Part shown: piece by piece, positions 4,914-20,205 of the stretch
Layout: each line of letters opens with the position of its first letter
Numbering within the stretch: position 1 is the first letter of the stretch
Assembly: GCF_004421005.1 (NCBI RefSeq)
Contig: NZ_CP038026.1
Span: 5,084,001-5,148,000 of the forward strand
Reading direction: 5' to 3'
Length of the DNA stretch: 64,000 nucleotides
Source of the DNA: Pseudoduganella plicata
Lineage (GTDB): Bacteria > Pseudomonadota > Gammaproteobacteria > Burkholderiales > Burkholderiaceae_D
The notes under the pieces: generated by a model
Databases searched by the model: none
What the model was told of the DNA's origin: nothing
What the model saw: only the letters and a program-made list of their open reading frames with translations
Translations under genes and position numbers: made by a program

Positions 4914-5929
4914 TACCAGTCTCCCGAGGCGCCGCCGCCGTCGAAGGTGCCGCCGCCACCGCCGCCGAAGCCGCCACCGCTACCAGAGCCGCTGCGTCCG
5001 CCGCCACCCAGCACGCTGCCGATGACACTGCCGATCAGCACACCGGCCGCGTCGGAACCCCAGCCGGAGCGGTGCAGGCCGCGCCGTCGGCTCCCGCCGC
5101 GCAGCATCGGCAGTACGACAAAAACGCCGAACAGCAGCAATGGCCACAGCGGGAAGCCGCCGCCTTCGGCTTGTTTCGGTGCGGGTGCCTGCTGGGCGGG
5201 AGCAGGGAACTGCTCCTTGTCCAGCAAGGTGGCGATGGCGCCGACGCCGGCCGTCAGGCCGCCGTAATAATCGTTGTTGCGAAAGTGTGGCGCGATAACG
5301 TCCTGCAGCACGCGCTTCGACTGCGCGTCCGTCAGCACGCCCTGCACGCCGCGGCCCGCCTCGATGCGCAGGCGCCGCAGCGACGAAGGATTGTCCTTGG
5401 CCACGACCAGCAGTACGCCGTCGTCGACACCCTTGCGCCCCAGCTTCCACGCATCCGTCACGCGGATGCTGTATTGCTCGATCGGTTCCGGTGCCGTGCT
5501 GGACATCAGCAGGACGGCAATCTGGCTGCCCGTCTTCGTTTCATAGTCGGCCAGCACCGCCTCCAGCGACGCGCGCTGCTCGGCGGTCAGCAGGTTGACC
5601 TGGTCCGTCACGCGCGACTGCAGCTGGGGCACGGGCACGAACCCGTCCGCCCGCTTCGTGCCCTGCGCCTTCGCCGCCTCGACGACAAGCAGCGCAAAGC
5701 TCAGGATGACCACCAGGATCGTGTACCGGACCAGCCAATGGCTCAGCCAGCCGCCCGACGGTTTCTGCGGCGGCCAGCGCAGCCGGCGCCGGCGACCGCG
5801 ACTGCGCACGTCGCGCTCGTTGGTGACCTCGGCCGTGCCAAGCCACTTGCCCTCGGCGGGATGCTCGCGCGAGCGCCGCCGGGCGGGCGCCGCGGGCGGG
5901 GTCACATGGTCCGTTGGGCCAACCGGCAT
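4913..5929 (-). CDS. YgcG-like TPM-domain membrane protein
   Basis: A 338-residue membrane protein. An Arg-rich N-terminal stretch of about 65 residues is followed by a transmembrane segment (YTILVVILSFALLVV), a TPM domain (about 95-235, with GSQIAVLLMSS and DDGVLLVVAKDN), a second hydrophobic segment (PLWPLLLFGVFVVLPML) and a Gly/Ser-rich tail ending GGGASGDW. This TPM plus glycine-rich tail is the YgcG architecture. The Arg-rich N-terminal extension is unusual, but the start is supported by TAAGGAAG just upstream, which overlaps the lemA stop codon. LemA and YgcG-type proteins are commonly neighbours, and a shared envelope role is likely but undefined. Confidence 0.85.
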   Translation of the reverse strand: MPVGPTDHVTPPAAPARRRSREHPAEGKWLGTAEVTNERDVRSRGRRRRLRWPPQKPSGGWLSHWLVRYTILVVILSFALLVVEAAKAQGTKRADGFVPVPQLQSRVTDQVNLLTAEQRASLEAVLADYETKTGSQIAVLLMSSTAPEPIEQYSIRVTDAWKLGRKGVDDGVLLVVAKDNPSSLRRLRIEAGRGVQGVLTDAQSKRVLQDVIAPHFRNNDYYGGLTAGVGAIATLLDKEQFPAPAQQAPAPKQAEGGGFPLWPLLLFGVFVVLPMLRGGSRRRGLHRSGWGSDAAGVLIGSVIGSVLGGGGRSGSGSGGGFGGGGGGTFDGGGASGDW

Positions 5930-5938
5930 GGCGCTTCC

Positions 5939-6538
5939 TTATTTCTTGTTGAAGTCGACGGTCGGTGCCGTGGAGATCGCTTTTTCGTTCTCCACCTGGA
6001 AGCTTGGCCGCACCTCGTAACCGAACATCTTGGCCGTCAGGTTGGTGGGGAAGCGCCGTGCCAGGATATTGTAGTCCTGCACGGATGCAATATAGCGCTG
6101 GCGCGCCACCGTGATGCGGTTTTCCGTGCCTTCCAGCTGCGACTGCAGGTCGCGGAAGCTGGTATCGGCCTTCAGGTCAGGGTATTTTTCCGACACCACC
6201 ATCAGGCGCGACAGCGCGGACGACAGCTCGCCTTGGGCCTGCTGGAATTTCTGGAACGCCGCAGGATTGTTCAACGTTTCAGGTGTCACCTGGATGCTGG
6301 TGGCCTGGGCCCGCGCCTTGGTCACCGCCTCCAGTGTTTCGCGTTCGTGCGACGCGTAACCCTTGACGGTATTGACGAGGTTTGGAATCAGGTCGGCACG
6401 GCGCTGGTACTGGTTGACCACCTCGCCCCACGCGGCCTTGACGCCCTCATCCTTCGTCTGGAAGTCGTTGTAGCCGCAGCCGGACAGGGCCACGGCAGTC
6501 AGGACCAGTGCGATCCATCGTTCGAACCTGTTGCGCAT
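5939..6538 (-). CDS. lemA: LemA family lipoprotein
   Basis: A 199-residue LemA protein anchored to a membrane as a lipoprotein. The N-terminal signal has the lipobox LSGC (Cys about residue 21). The family core follows: a predicted helical bundle with QYQRRADLIPNLVNTVKGYA, then TEN-type helices and YNILARRFP and FGYEVRPSFQVE near the end. A strong AAGGAG precedes the ATG by 5 bases. It is the first gene of an operon with two TPM-domain genes, 10 bases before the next. The biochemical role of LemA is not established. Confidence 0.93.
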   Translation of the reverse strand: MRNRFERWIALVLTAVALSGCGYNDFQTKDEGVKAAWGEVVNQYQRRADLIPNLVNTVKGYASHERETLEAVTKARAQATSIQVTPETLNNPAAFQKFQQAQGELSSALSRLMVVSEKYPDLKADTSFRDLQSQLEGTENRITVARQRYIASVQDYNILARRFPTNLTAKMFGYEVRPSFQVENEKAISTAPTVDFNKK

Positions 6539-6670
6539 GATTTCTCCTTATTGTTCGCGTTCGCCCACGGCGGTCGCTCCACCGTGGCTGGGTTGACTAT
6601 ACACGGAACGCAAGACCTCTATTGTTCGATGCAGCACATAGCGTTGCCGCACCCGCAAGCGTCCCTCACC

Positions 6671-15544: not shown

Positions 15545-15709
15545 CTCACACATTGTCACAATCGTCGCTCCAGGCTGGCCCTGAACGGCGATGGTGGAAC
15601 CCGGGTAATGCAAGGCGCGGCGCTTTGCGCCATGCCAGGGGACACCGTTGCTGAAATTTGTCTGCCCGTGTCGTACTCCACGAGCGCGACCGCTAACCCA
15701 AGATTGAAA

Positions 15710-15949
15710 ATGCTACTGAAAGAACTGACGTCCTCGCCGACGTACAACCCGAACCGCGTCCTGGACGCCATCATGGAAAAGCTGCAGCTGAAAACGGACG
15801 CCGCGCTGTCGCGCGCACTGGAAGTGGCGCCGCCCGTCATCAGCAAGATCCGGCACAACACGCTGCCGATCGGCGCGACCATCCTGATCCGCATGCACGA
15901 GATCAGCGAGTTCAGTATTCGCGAGCTGCAGGAGTTGATGGCGCACTGA
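15710..15949 (+). CDS. Small helix-turn-helix protein
   Basis: A 79-residue protein that looks like a compact DNA-binding regulator. TDAALSRALEVAPPVISKIR (about residues 23-42) has the spacing of an XRE-type helix-turn-helix, followed by a helical C-terminus (RMHEISEFSIRELQELM). There is no second domain, so it may act as a dimer like phage Cro-type proteins. The ATG at 15710 is the first residue of the conserved-looking block. The frame is open upstream to 15608, but that part reads as low-complexity. The gene ends at a strong bidirectional terminator. Confidence 0.7.
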   Translation: MLLKELTSSPTYNPNRVLDAIMEKLQLKTDAALSRALEVAPPVISKIRHNTLPIGATILIRMHEISEFSIRELQELMAH

Positions 15950-16050: not shown

Positions 16051-16893
16051 TCACTCAGCGTTGATGCGCGGGCGGGCGTTGTAAAACGCGTCCTGCACCG
16101 ACGGGGCGGCCTGCACGCGTCCCGAGAACGCGGTCTTGTCCGCCACGCGTCCGGAGAACGCCGCTACATTGTCCGCACTGATGCGCCCGGAGAAAGCAAG
16201 CTTTGCCGCAATCGTGGGCTCGGCGACGCGGCCGGAGAACCCGGTGGCGGCGCTGATCCGGCCGGAAAACGCGGTCTGCCCGGCAACCCGGCCGGAGAAC
16301 GCCGTCTGTTCGCTGATGCGGCCGGAAAACGCGGTTTGCTCGGCAACCCGTCCCGAGAATGCCGTCTGCGCGCTGATCCGCCCGGAGAATGCGGTCTGGT
16401 CCGTAACCCGTCCCGAGAACGCGGTCGCTTCGCTGACCCGCCCGGAAAACGCCGTCTGTTCGGCAACGCGGCCCGAAAATGCCTGCGCCGGCGTTTCGGC
16501 ACGGGCGCCGATGCCATAGGGCTCGCCGAACGTGCTTTCGTACAGTTCCTTCATCCGCTGTCCCACGCGCTCGTGCGCCGCCTCGTCGTCCTCGCCGCGC
16601 AGTCCGATGTACGGGAAGTGGTGCAGGAAGTAGCCAAACACGGCCTCGCAGTCGATGGCGTATTTCATCGTATCGAGGATGTGGTAGTGCCAGAAGATGT
16701 CGACGTCCATCAGCGGTGCCGTCTGTTCCTGCGGGAACATCTTCATCAGGTACAGGAAGCGGCGGTACTCGAACTCGACAGCATTGGCCTTCTCCAGCGA
16801 CCAGCCTTCGCCGGACTCGACGTGCATCAGCTTGACCTTGATGGGTTCCAGGTCGAGGGCCGCGATTGGGTTGAAGTGTTCGGTAGAAAACAT
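16051..16893 (-). CDS. GRDP-like domain protein with AFSGR decapeptide repeats
   Basis: A 280-residue protein in three parts. Residues 1-115 resemble the glycine-rich-domain-protein-like (GRDP) N-terminal fold: EFEYRRFLYLMKMFP, then DIFWHYHILDT and DCEAVFGYFLHHFPYIGLRG, rich in His, Trp and Cys that could bind a metal. Residues about 138-260 are 12 copies of (A/G)FSGR(V/I); the first eight are exact 10-residue units such as AFSGRVAEQT. The tail DAFYNARPRINAE ends the protein. There is no signal peptide or membrane segment. A diverged tandem paralogue lies next to it. The function is unknown. Such arrays can be structural solenoids, binding arrays or multi-copy precursor peptides, and nothing here decides among them. 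Confidence 0.8.
   Translation of the reverse strand: MFSTEHFNPIAALDLEPIKVKLMHVESGEGWSLEKANAVEFEYRRFLYLMKMFPQEQTAPLMDVDIFWHYHILDTMKYAIDCEAVFGYFLHHFPYIGLRGEDDEAAHERVGQRMKELYESTFGEPYGIGARAETPAQAFSGRVAEQTAFSGRVSEATAFSGRVTDQTAFSGRISAQTAFSGRVAEQTAFSGRISEQTAFSGRVAGQTAFSGRISAATGFSGRVAEPTIAAKLAFSGRISADNVAAFSGRVADKTAFSGRVQAAPSVQDAFYNARPRINAE
16114..16482 (-). repeat. 12-unit AFSGR-encoding tandem repeat
   Basis: Coding tandem repeat with a 30-base period for the first eight units, then longer units. Each unit encodes (A/G)FSGR(V/I) plus a variable linker, often xxQT or xxAT. Synonymous positions vary between units, so selection has kept the peptide rather than the DNA. Confidence 0.9.
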
Positions 16894-17122
16894 GCGTGAT
16901 GACCTTTACTCGAGGTGGGCACAGGCATTGTCCTGGCCAGCGTGGCCGGATGCCGGGGGAAGTGAAACGGGCGTGTTGATTCGCATCAACTCAAACTAGT
17001 ATATTGAAAGTCGCTCTGATTACAAGCGGCAAGTTCTATCGTGCGCACGCAACGAATGTGGCTGTAGAGGAGAGCGATAGCGGAAACCAGAACCGCTGTT
17101 GCGGTTCCGGTACAACAGGACT

Positions 17123-17938
17123 TCAGGCAGCGTGGGTCAGACGCGGCCGTTGCGCGTAGAACTGATCGGCAGGCACCTGCGCTACGGGCATGGCGGACGA
17201 GGCCACCTGAGGCGAGCCGGAAAACGCTGCCGATGCCCGTCCCGCGGGCGCACCGGAGAACGCGGCACGGGCCGCGCCCGCCGGCGCACCGGAGAACGCT
17301 GCCTGCGTCCCGGTCGCGGCACCGGAAAAGGCGACCTGCTCGCTACCGGCAGCGGCGCCCGAGAATGCCACCTGCGCACTGCCGGTCGCGGCACCAGAGA
17401 ACGCCGTGCGCATCCGCGCGGCAGGCGCGCCCGAGAAGGCGATCTGTTGCCCGCCTCTTGCCGCGCCCGAGAATGCGGTCCGCGCCGCCGCGCCGGAAAA
17501 TGCCGTGCGCACGCCGTCGGCAGGCGCGCCGGAAAACGCGGCAGCGGCCCGGCCCGCATGGATATACGGCTCGTTGAACGTCGCTTCGTACAGTTCCTTC
17601 ATGCGTTCGCCAACCCTGTGGTGTGCCGCCTCGTCCTCCTCGCCGCGCAGGCCGATGTAGGGGAAGTGGTGCAGGAAGTAACCGAACACGGCCTGGCAGT
17701 CAGCGGCGTATTTCAGCGTATCGAGGATGTGATAGTGCCAGAACGTGTCGACGTCTTGCAGCGGTGCGGTCTGTTCCTGCGGAAATTTCTTCATCAGGTA
17801 AAGGAAGCGCCGGTATTCGAATTCGACGGCATTGGCCCGTTCCAGCGACCAGCCTTCTCACGATTCCTCGTGCATCAGCTTGACTTTGATGGGTTCCAGA
17901 TCCAACTCGGCAATCGTATCGAAATCGTTCGTGTCCAT
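17123..17938 (-). pseudogene. AFSG-repeat paralogue with in-frame UGA
   Basis: Tandem paralogue of the upstream GRDP-like gene. From the ATG at 17938 the frame reads MDTNDFDTIAELDLEPIKVK, but codon 27 (17858-17860) is TGA where the paralogue has a Gly codon in HVESGEGWSL. After it the frame stays open for 244 codons with the domain intact (DTFWHYHILDT, FGYFLHHFPYIGLRG), ten AFSG(A/S)(A/P) repeats and the tail DQFYAQRPRL. Either translation restarts downstream (for example at the ATG at 17794), or UGA is read through, or the gene is newly inactivated, or the base is an error. The repeat linkers differ from paralogue 1 (no Arg after AFSG), while AFSG and FYxxRPR are kept. Confidence 0.75.
17210..17539 (-). 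repeat. 10-unit AFSG-encoding tandem repeat
   Basis: Ten units encoding AFSG followed by (A/S)(A/P) and a 3-7 residue linker rich in Ala, Gly and Arg, with spacing of 9-12 residues. Compared with the neighbouring array, AFSG is invariant while the linker composition has changed as a block. Confidence 0.88.
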
Positions 17939-18028: not shown

Positions 18029-19854
18029 TCAATGCTCGGCGAACTGGCTGATAAACGGCGGCAGCGCTCCCCGGTACGCGACGGGGACGGAGACCGTGAT
18101 GGTGGTGCCCCCGTCCGGAATGCTGCTGATCGCGCACGTCCCGCCCAGCAGGTTGATGCGCTCCTCAATACCGACGAGCCCGAACGAGCCCGTCTTGTTC
18201 CGGCTGGCCGCCTGCAGGCCGACGCCGTTGTCGGTAATGCTCATCTGCAGCAGGCCTTGCTGCTGGTGCAGCTCGACCTTCACCCGGGTGGCCTGCGCAT
18301 GCTGGCAGATATTGCTGAGCGACTCCTGCAGCACGCGGAAGAAGGCCGTGGCGCAGCGGTCGTCGATATCGACGTCGCCGCCGTGTTCGATCAGCTCGCA
18401 GTCGATGCCCGAACGCTTGCGGAACTGCGCCACCTGCCACTCCACGGCGGCGTTCAGGCCAAGGTCCAGCACGTTCGGCCGCAGATCGTTGATGATGTGG
18501 CGCACGCTGCGGATCGTGTTGTCGATCTGGTTCAGGGTGTAGCGGGCGCGTGCATGCAGGTAGGGATGACGCTTGGCAGTGCGGGTGGCGAGGATGTCCG
18601 CTTCGATCCGCAGCGCCAGCAGGTTCTGGCCCAGATCGTCATGGATCTCGCGGGCGATACGCTTGCGCTCCTCTTCCTTGATCTGGTCGGCATGCGCGGC
18701 CAGCCGGCGCAGGCGCTGGTGCGACAGCTGCAGCTTGGCCTGGCTGTCGCGCAGCTCGCGCGTCATGGCGCGGGCAATCTTCAGCGCCCGTTTGCGCGAC
18801 GAGGCCAGGGTATGGAACAGCGCATACAGCAACAGGCAGCTGATCGTGCCCGTCAGTCCGGCGAGGACCGGCAGGTAGGCATCGAAGCGTGTGTAAAGCG
18901 CGGCCTTCGGGGCGCTGAAGTAGGCCGTCCACACACGGCCGTTGAAGTCGATGGGCAGCATGTGCTGGAACGTCCGGTCCGGCGCTTCCAGCCGGGCCGA
19001 ATCGGCGCTGTCGAACAGCAGCTGGCGCGTTTCGTCGACCGTGCCGGCGCTATCGGGAACGCGGCGCCCCACGTCGTACAGCTGCAGCCGGACATTGGGG
19101 ACCGGCATCTCGTCCAGCGCTCCCTGCAGCAGGCGCGGCACGCTGAAACCGATGCCCACCGAACCCATGTACGCCGTGCGGCGCTGCAGAATCGTGTCGA
19201 GCGGCATGCCAGGGTAGTACAGGGGCAGGCGCATGCCCAGATCGGCGCCGTGGGGCCGCGCCATGATGCCGATCGGGCGGCCCGACGAGGCCAGTTCGCC
19301 GGTGTCGCGCGAGCGCGCCAGGGCGGCGGCCACGTGCGGCTTGCCGGATAGATTGACCCCGTATTTTTCCTCGAAGCCGCCGATGGGTTCGAGCATGGCC
19401 AGCACCTCGTAGGTGGGATAGCGCGTGCCAGGCTTGATCGCAAAGGGGGATACCCGTCCGCCGAGGCGCCGTTGTGACGCATGGACAGTTCGAACCCGGC
19501 CCGCTCGTCGTCGCGCACGTAGCGGGCGAAATTGATGTTGTCGATGGCAGGGAAGTTATGGGGCAGGTCGAGGCCGCGGACGAAACGGTGGAAACTGGCA
19601 CGGGAAACGTCGTCATCGGCCTGGAAGAAGCTGGCCGTGGCGCGCAGCACGTCCGTATAGGTCTTGATGCGCGACGCGATGCTGAACTGGGCGGTACGGG
19701 CATGGTTGCTGAAGCGCTGGCGCGCGTCGGTTTCGATCGAGCGGGCCGCAGCGCCGTAGAACAGCGCACCCGCAGCCAGCGACAGCAGCACTCCCGGCCA
19801 CCAGCGCGGATTTTTCGGAAGCGCATGCCCGATCGGGCGGAATAATGCGTGCAT
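18029..19854 (-). pseudogene. CHASE-type sensor histidine kinase, frameshifted
   Basis: Two overlapping minus-strand frames together encode a NarX/DegS-class sensor kinase. The first (from ATG 19854) has a membrane segment and the start of a CHASE-like extracellular domain (ETDARQRFSNHARTAQF and FPAIDNINFARYV). It breaks at GYPP near 19445-19450, a run of five C on the coding strand. The other frame continues AIKPGTRYPTYEVL, the rest of CHASE, a second membrane segment, the HisKA_3 box REIHDDLGQ (about residue 400) and an ATPase domain (SLSNICQHAQA, ITDNGVG). Restoring one base, for instance a sixth C, gives a 608-residue intact protein. No response regulator is adjacent. Causes: true inactivation, phase-variable tract, or sequencing error. 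Confidence 0.85.
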
Positions 19855-20205
19855 GATCAGAACCCTCTTTGTGCTGCCATTAATATAAGAATGGTGCTGG
19901 TGCTTCGTCAAGTAGCGTTCGAGATTTACGACCAGAAGTTATTCAATCTGGTAGACCGATACATAATACCGTTGCATTCATTGCTCAGTGGGTGCAAAGG
20001 CTATTAAAGTGATACCAGAAAAGCGGTGTGTACGCATAGCTGTCATTCTTGCCAGCGACAGTGCCTCGATGTAACAGCGATTACCGGATACCGATCGCAT
20101 AGGGTCGCAAGGCGCAAGCGATATTCGCGCCGGATATGCCGCTGGCGCAAAAATAAATAAATACGGCAGCGATAATCAGATCCGAAAAGCCGTTTTTCCG
20201 GAACG

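Follow-up and report, generated by a model that had tools for sequence, protein, structure and literature searches.

Dikaritins (ustiloxin) and cyanobactins are multi-core RiPP precursors, and the BURP-domain peptide cyclases (burpitides) carry a metal-site-like domain fused to repeated aromatic-containing core peptides. Captophorin/oxazolin precursors contain EGKCG repeats (PMC12668002, PMC12452194), methanobactin-type RiPP metallophores provide a further system for comparison (PMC3621798), and Cys-tailed TIGR04222 membrane proteins are regarded by their authors as MNIO-linked putative RiPP precursors (PMC12452194). Plant glycine-rich domain proteins (GRDP1/2) have been studied in auxin-linked development, not in peptide maturation (PMC8585784). 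Our literature search, which covered non-subscription papers, found neither a bacterial role for the GRDP domain family (PF07173) nor a link between PF07173/GRDP and RiPPs. The sole literature match for GRDP together with RiPP was a fungal comparative-genomics paper.

The locus described here lies in a window of 64,000 nucleotides from Pseudoduganella plicata, and its features are listed in Table 1. The first-pass annotation had reported tandem paralogues with 12 and 10 repeat units, each with a GRDP-like N-terminus and a C-terminal FYxxRPR tail; both genes were found on the minus strand, the unit counts hold, and the N-terminus and tail are present in both. Within gene 1, 11 units read AFSGR and one reads GFSGR, and both arrays were recovered independently by Tandem Repeats Finder, with scores up to 321. 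Gene 1 matches PF07173 with an E-value of 2.1e-5 and 25.7 bits, above the curated cut-off of 22.7, the match covering the C-terminal part of the model, while the gene 2 frame reaches 24.3 bits in a genome search. In the FYxxRPR tail the Y, R and P are nearly invariant among 43 proteins. NCBIfam searches assigned neither the array proteins nor the small peptides described below to a family.

Table 1 Features of the GRDP-array locus (positions within the window)
Feature	Position	Strand	Description
Gene 1	16051..16893	-	Intact ORF, 280 aa; GRDP-domain protein with 12-unit array; PF07173 match
Gene 1 N-terminal GRDP-like domain	16516..16893	-	Residues 1-126; conservation and prediction (pLDDT 92.8)
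Gene 1 array	16114..16482	-	Residues 138-260; 12 x (A/G)FSGR(V/I), linkers ~4 residues
Gene 1 C-terminal tail FYNARPRINAE	16054..16086	-	FYxxRPR conservation
Gene 2 paralogue frame	17123..17938	-	Frame interrupted by TGA; probably a pseudogene, or else an N-truncated ORF (17123-17794)
Gene 2 TGA, codon 27	17858..17860	-	Gly in homologues
Gene 2 array	17210..17539	-	Residues 134-243; 10 x AFSG(A/S)(A/P)x
Gene 2 C-terminal tail FYAQRPRLTHAA	17126..17161	-	ORF translation
CHASE/HisKA_3 histidine kinase, syntenic neighbour	18029..19911	-	Frameshifted near 19440 (region 19438-19480)
Small convergent ORF, downstream	15608..15949	+	Conserved at 72/78 loci

Gene 2 had been taken as an open frame from 17938, a reading broken by the TGA, which replaces the Gly of the ESGEGW motif conserved in family members. 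Since the stop falls on this conserved-Gly codon and the only ATG-started ORF begins at 17794, gene 2 is probably a pseudogene in this genome, as judged from its sequence. As to the frameshift in the histidine kinase, three homologous kinases align to two different frames here, and the homologues are single proteins of ~600-650 aa.

To describe the repeats across the family, ~112 different full Oxalobacteraceae sequences were read. Among the 294 family genomes sampled, 122 have a homologue of the GRDP-like domain (the weakest matches being plain GRDP proteins), and 78 loci lie in named genomes, mostly of Pseudoduganella, Duganella, Janthinobacterium, Rugamonas and Massilia. All ~112 sequences contain at least one unit, and 112 table rows have at least three, with a median of 9 and a range of 3-19. 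Every array shows the core A-(Y/F/W/H)-(S/C)-x. In the gene-level consensus, position 1 is Ala in 111 of 112 genes, position 2 is Tyr in 64, Phe in 24, Trp in 13 and His in 11, and position 3 is Ser in 99 and Cys in 13; these frequencies are conditioned, because the unit search accepted only an aromatic residue or His with Ser or Cys directly after it. When the search was relaxed to A-x-(S/C), ~1,026 units had an aromatic or His centre versus ~75 with any other, and a gene with another dominant unit was not seen in the ~112 sequences. Among divergent family members the domain is 68-84% identical to that of gene 1, and the cores have changed block-wise. The AFSG core that the first-pass annotation called invariant is thus so inside this genome, and gives way in the family to A-(Y/F/W/H)-(S/C)-x. 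This layout, in which short repeated cores that vary come after a conserved N-terminal part, is in sequence terms that of a multi-core precursor.

Codon comparisons indicate where selection acts. Averaged by gene, unit pairs differ synonymously in 55% of cases at Ala and 44% at Ser/Cys, with nonsynonymous differences of only 3% and 2% at these positions, while at flanking linker positions 46-68% of unit pairs differ nonsynonymously. The same was tested in gene 1 with nine units of fixed 10-aa period, the period and not the motif serving as frame. Of the resulting 36 unit pairs, 18-24 differ synonymously and none nonsynonymously at the F, S, G and R codons, and 18-25 differ nonsynonymously at linker positions. 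Recent copying of DNA therefore does not by itself account for the units, and the fixed residues at synonymously differing codons support the view that the repeated core, rather than the linkers, is under selection. On a tree of domain DNA (101 rows, array excluded), whose change counts are approximate because many branches are weakly supported, the dominant aromatic underwent at least 19 array-wide changes, none of them leaving Y/F/W/H, while Ser/Cys changed 2 times and the 5-mer core 43 times. Single changes from Tyr codons lead to six other amino acids, of which only Phe and His belong to the allowed set. As Tyr codons mostly reach other residues, the confinement of these 19 changes points to selection. 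The proposal that selection acts on AFSG itself is thus supported in placing selection on the core and wrong in its specific motif, AFSG being the local version of A-Omega-(S/C)-x.

The 126-residue domain in front of the array is predicted with confidence to be all-helical (mean pLDDT 92.8). An alignment of 17 divergent relatives, with membrane forms and one phage protein among them, shows D65, W68, H69, H71, T75, Y78, H92 and P94 invariant and D81 and C82 nearly so, giving the pattern D-x2-WHxH ... DC ... HxP. Residues of the metal-ligand type (D65, H69, H71, D81, C82 and H92) are thus near-invariant in the fused domain, as read from sequence alignment. Foldseek and VIA-align searches gave nothing convincing (no match with E <1; best Z 2.6), and a sequence search of solved structures returned a chance match only. 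We therefore claim no known fold for the domain either way; the absence of a fold match is no proof of a new fold.

In our judgement the chances are about even that gene 1, and gene 2 before its stop, encode a cis-fused, RiPP-like multi-core substrate, with the GRDP-like domain as its recognition or modifying module. One chain would comprise the GRDP-like domain, 10-12 A-F-S-G-x cores and the FYxxRPR tail at its end. The D-x2-W-H-x-H ... D-C ... H-x-P residues are proposed to form a metal-binding or active site, and the domain would act on each A-Omega-(S/C) core. Through duplication in tandem and inter-unit conversion the cores would multiply and become homogenised, while selection would hold Ala, the aromatic residue (or His) and Ser/Cys in place and let the linkers drift. 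We infer three steps here, namely that the cores are modified, that the domain does or guides this modification, and that mature peptides are released.

Many homologues found in class-wide and phylum-wide searches are array-less, and their neighbours bear directly on the multi-core substrate reading. Among the short array-less gammaproteobacterial homologues, eight (L116-L122 and L124, from five family codes) each have a Cys-rich peptide ORF of 41-61 aa located 140-210 nt upstream on the same strand. These peptides have related N-termini and a CxGxC..SGxC core like CNGKCASGVC, for example AACNGKCSGGVCKS, EANCSGHCQSGTC and GCNGTCASGTC, and the same peptide stands beside a truncated or interrupted GRDP frame on a Piscirickettsia plasmid (L179). 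Across 1.95 Mb containing 5,698 small ORFs with an ATG start, a regular expression for the core matched 15, and each of these lay directly upstream of a GRDP gene; some loci are counted twice, and since the expression was built from these very peptides, the result measures specificity, not discovery. The genes close by are usually those of TonB-dependent receptors and TonB, or of ABC exporters (an ABC ATPase plus ABC-2 permease). It had been argued earlier that homologues with the same N-terminus and no repeat would mark the arrays as neutral tails. Such homologues formally exist in these eight; because each has an upstream Cys-rich peptide ORF, they strengthen the substrate reading instead of the neutral one.

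Separate peptides also adjoin GRDP genes elsewhere. In Stanieria, the peptide MNSQAAFCFLMPEAGFCFLDKKGNLQRPSIKL... (AAFCFL...AGFCFL) is followed by a methyltransferase gene, and in G1223 the peptide ...GKAFCGKLCMPMRS (KAFCGKLC) occurs with a methyltransferase and an MFS protein; Cyanobacteria were sampled through one plasmid only. On Halomonas and Pseudomonas savastanoi plasmids, a peptide with ...GGGHCQGGG(S/G)W and divergent leaders lies beside the GRDP gene, together with a ~440-aa membrane protein; the Halomonas one resembles MatE with a marginal score. Apart from Cys and small residues, the trans peptides have little in common from group to group, and several short GRDPs (e.g. L207 and L125) have neither a Cys tail nor a recognisable peptide.

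In other relatives the Cys-containing segment is fused to the domain. A-x-C tails occur in Variovorax (AWCSL, three copies) and Cupriavidus (AYCAR-type, five copies), G018 contains AYCAGPH and AFCAGPH units, and an alphaproteobacterial protein (L209; G1210, reverse strand 5902-6618) has six AMCGGMLK-type repeats, that is, A-x-C-G cores far from Oxalobacteraceae. Alphaproteobacterial tandem GRDP genes end in TPAMCIS and TSSICW. In two unrelated genomes, Azospirillum ramasamyi and G702, a GRDP with a two-Cys tail occurs with a TauD dioxygenase, a methyltransferase and a UvrA-like protein (L156 220-7183, minus strand; L176 8928-16709, plus strand), a combination that from its gene content looks like a biosynthetic cluster. 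One of the two clusters also has a pentapeptide-repeat protein, and the second has PhyH. A further GRDP with a CPNCGRR tail and an RPSF end (L159 7796-9139, minus strand) is directly followed by a pentapeptide-repeat membrane protein. One membrane homologue joins a GRDP-like domain to TIGR04222 (E 7.2e-40) and a Cys/Ser/Gly tail. In the 595-kb genome of an uncultured phage (LR756511.1; L232 2968-3579), a GRDP domain carries a long tail rich in Cys, His and Gly; the viral contigs searched yielded no relative.

The domain is thus paired with Cys/Ser core peptides both in cis and in trans in several bacterial groups and phyla, with maturation or transport genes at some loci. Among the options raised at first pass (a ligand-binding unit, an assembly unit or a multi-core peptide substrate), the relatives favour the multi-core substrate. 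The simplest account, resting on these gene arrangements, would be that GRDP-like proteins recognise or modify short Cys/Ser cores, with the window proteins as fused versions that carry several cores.

An unmodified tail whose repeats bind metal or a partner protein in a store- or buffer-like manner is an unlikely alternative to this account. It would suit the Cys/His-rich tails of some relatives, namely RCxxHACHxPxSCACRxPGACK in two genomes and the tail of the huge-phage protein, and also the TonB-dependent receptors near others. However, most Oxalobacteraceae arrays are Cys-free (AYSG, AFSG, AWSG) and would make poor metal ligands, and the aromatic residue is kept almost as strictly as Ser/Cys.

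We likewise consider it improbable that the array is an intrinsically disordered or weakly beta-forming low-complexity tail that self-associates or condenses by means of its spaced aromatics (with Arg), the domain acting as client or anchor. The arrays are 29% Ala, with Ser/Gly/Thr/Val/Gln besides and ~10% aromatic residues or His, and Y, F, W and H interchange, all as such a tail might require; unit spacing is variable, mostly 7-18 residues, which would suit flexible spacers. The full-length AF2 model places a short beta strand at each unit, but with pLDDT ~50 this prediction is of low confidence and was set aside as evidence. Self-association would not account for the constant Ala preceding the aromatic and Ser/Cys following it, for the Cys versions of the core, or for the free-standing Cys-core peptides next to GRDP genes that lack an array. 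A regular beta-solenoid repeat was rejected on the irregular spacing and on profile searches, in which pentapeptide-repeat and bactofilin models gave no significant Pfam match for the window protein (bactofilin E 0.22, noise).

The conserved neighbours at Oxalobacteraceae loci are glnS, the CHASE-type histidine kinase (on the same strand and directly upstream at 76 of 78 loci) and the small convergent ORF, which has a weak likeness to the HigA antitoxin (E 0.0096, below cut-off). No RiPP enzyme, peptidase, exporter/transporter or receptor is conserved within ~6 kb at the 78 loci. The partners suggested beforehand (a kinase acting on the peptide, a peptidase, modification enzymes) thus do not stand beside the Oxalobacteraceae arrays, and modification enzymes nearby were found in distant relatives only. 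One MNIO (PF05114) gene lies ~60 kb from the window arrays, at contig C1 5161041-5161823 of this genome (G000; 541-aa frame), ~13 kb past the window end. MNIO is kept widely in Oxalobacteraceae, often ~50-90 kb from the arrays, and is present in most array genomes sampled; it was not found in the complete genomes G045 and G058, both array-bearing, and was rejected as an obligatory partner on these two. The window proteins also lack the marks of an MNIO-modified precursor of the TIGR04222, bufferin or captophorin type, with no adjacent MNIO and only Ser in their cores.

A reading in which the GRDP domain serves as no more than leader or carrier, the cores being modified in trans by a RiPP enzyme encoded elsewhere in the genome, such as MNIO, is also improbable. 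The similar distance of MNIO in many array genomes agrees with it, as does the GRDP-TIGR04222 protein, TIGR04222 proteins being published MNIO-associated putative precursors (PMC12452194). Against it stand the two complete array genomes without MNIO and the array-less GRDPs, which adjoin peptides with their own leader-like N-terminus, so that the domain is not just a leader. Finally, a neutral low-complexity tail, expanded by slippage and homogenised by conversion, is highly improbable, for unit number (3-19) and linkers do vary freely between genes, and the linkers may well be neutral, but the core is found in every array, its array-wide aromatic switches stay in Y/F/W/H, and its codons diverge synonymously only, which rules out neutrality for the core.

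Returning to the cis-fused multi-core substrate, at some array-less loci the neighbours examined comprise no more than peptide, GRDP and transport genes, which makes the domain itself a candidate enzyme; the data fit a role in recognition or metal delivery equally well. A broader and more tentative proposal, which we think unlikely though worth stating, is that the bacterial GRDP-like domain represents a new class of peptide-modifying enzymes, all-helical and with a fold not known from the PDB. It would install a modification at aromatic-Ser/Cys or Cys-Gly motifs, in cis on Oxalobacteraceae arrays, whereas its substrates in Gammaproteobacteria, Alphaproteobacteria and Cyanobacteria would be Cys-rich peptides modified in trans, some of them metallophores imported by TonB-dependent receptors. 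The main weaknesses of the substrate reading are that no transport or protease genes lie beside the Oxalobacteraceae loci and that most arrays have Ser where relatives have Cys; in addition, fold searches yield no known enzyme, and in this genome neither gene 2 nor the histidine kinase is intact. If a role in RiPP maturation is true, a class of peptide natural products would have been missed by genome mining for known enzymes, and the Oxalobacteraceae arrays would be natural libraries of tolerated residues (Y, F, W or H, then S or C). A role in metal uptake is suggested by the TonB-dependent receptors at gammaproteobacterial loci.

Compared with known systems, the TIGR04222/MNIO system resembles the GRDP family through the one fusion homologue with its Cys/Ser/Gly tail, but the window proteins lack both a TIGR04222 domain and a neighbouring MNIO gene, and their cores have Ser instead of Cys. 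Gammaproteobacterial GRDP loci, like the methanobactin type, pair a gene for a short Cys peptide with an adjacent TonB-dependent receptor gene; the neighbours examined there included no recognisable MbnB-like (MNIO) gene, its place being taken by a GRDP protein. The multi-core RiPP precursors and the captophorin/oxazolin precursors share with the window genes homogenised tandem short cores, variable copy number and a conserved N-terminal part, whereas the window genes have no adjacent modification genes and their N-terminus is a folded, highly conserved 120-aa domain in place of a short leader. With the BURP-domain cyclases of another kingdom we propose a shared cis-acting logic, a likeness of architecture. 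With plant GRDP1/2, gene 1 shares the PF07173 domain itself, which in bacterial members comes with arrays, Cys tails or separate Cys peptides.
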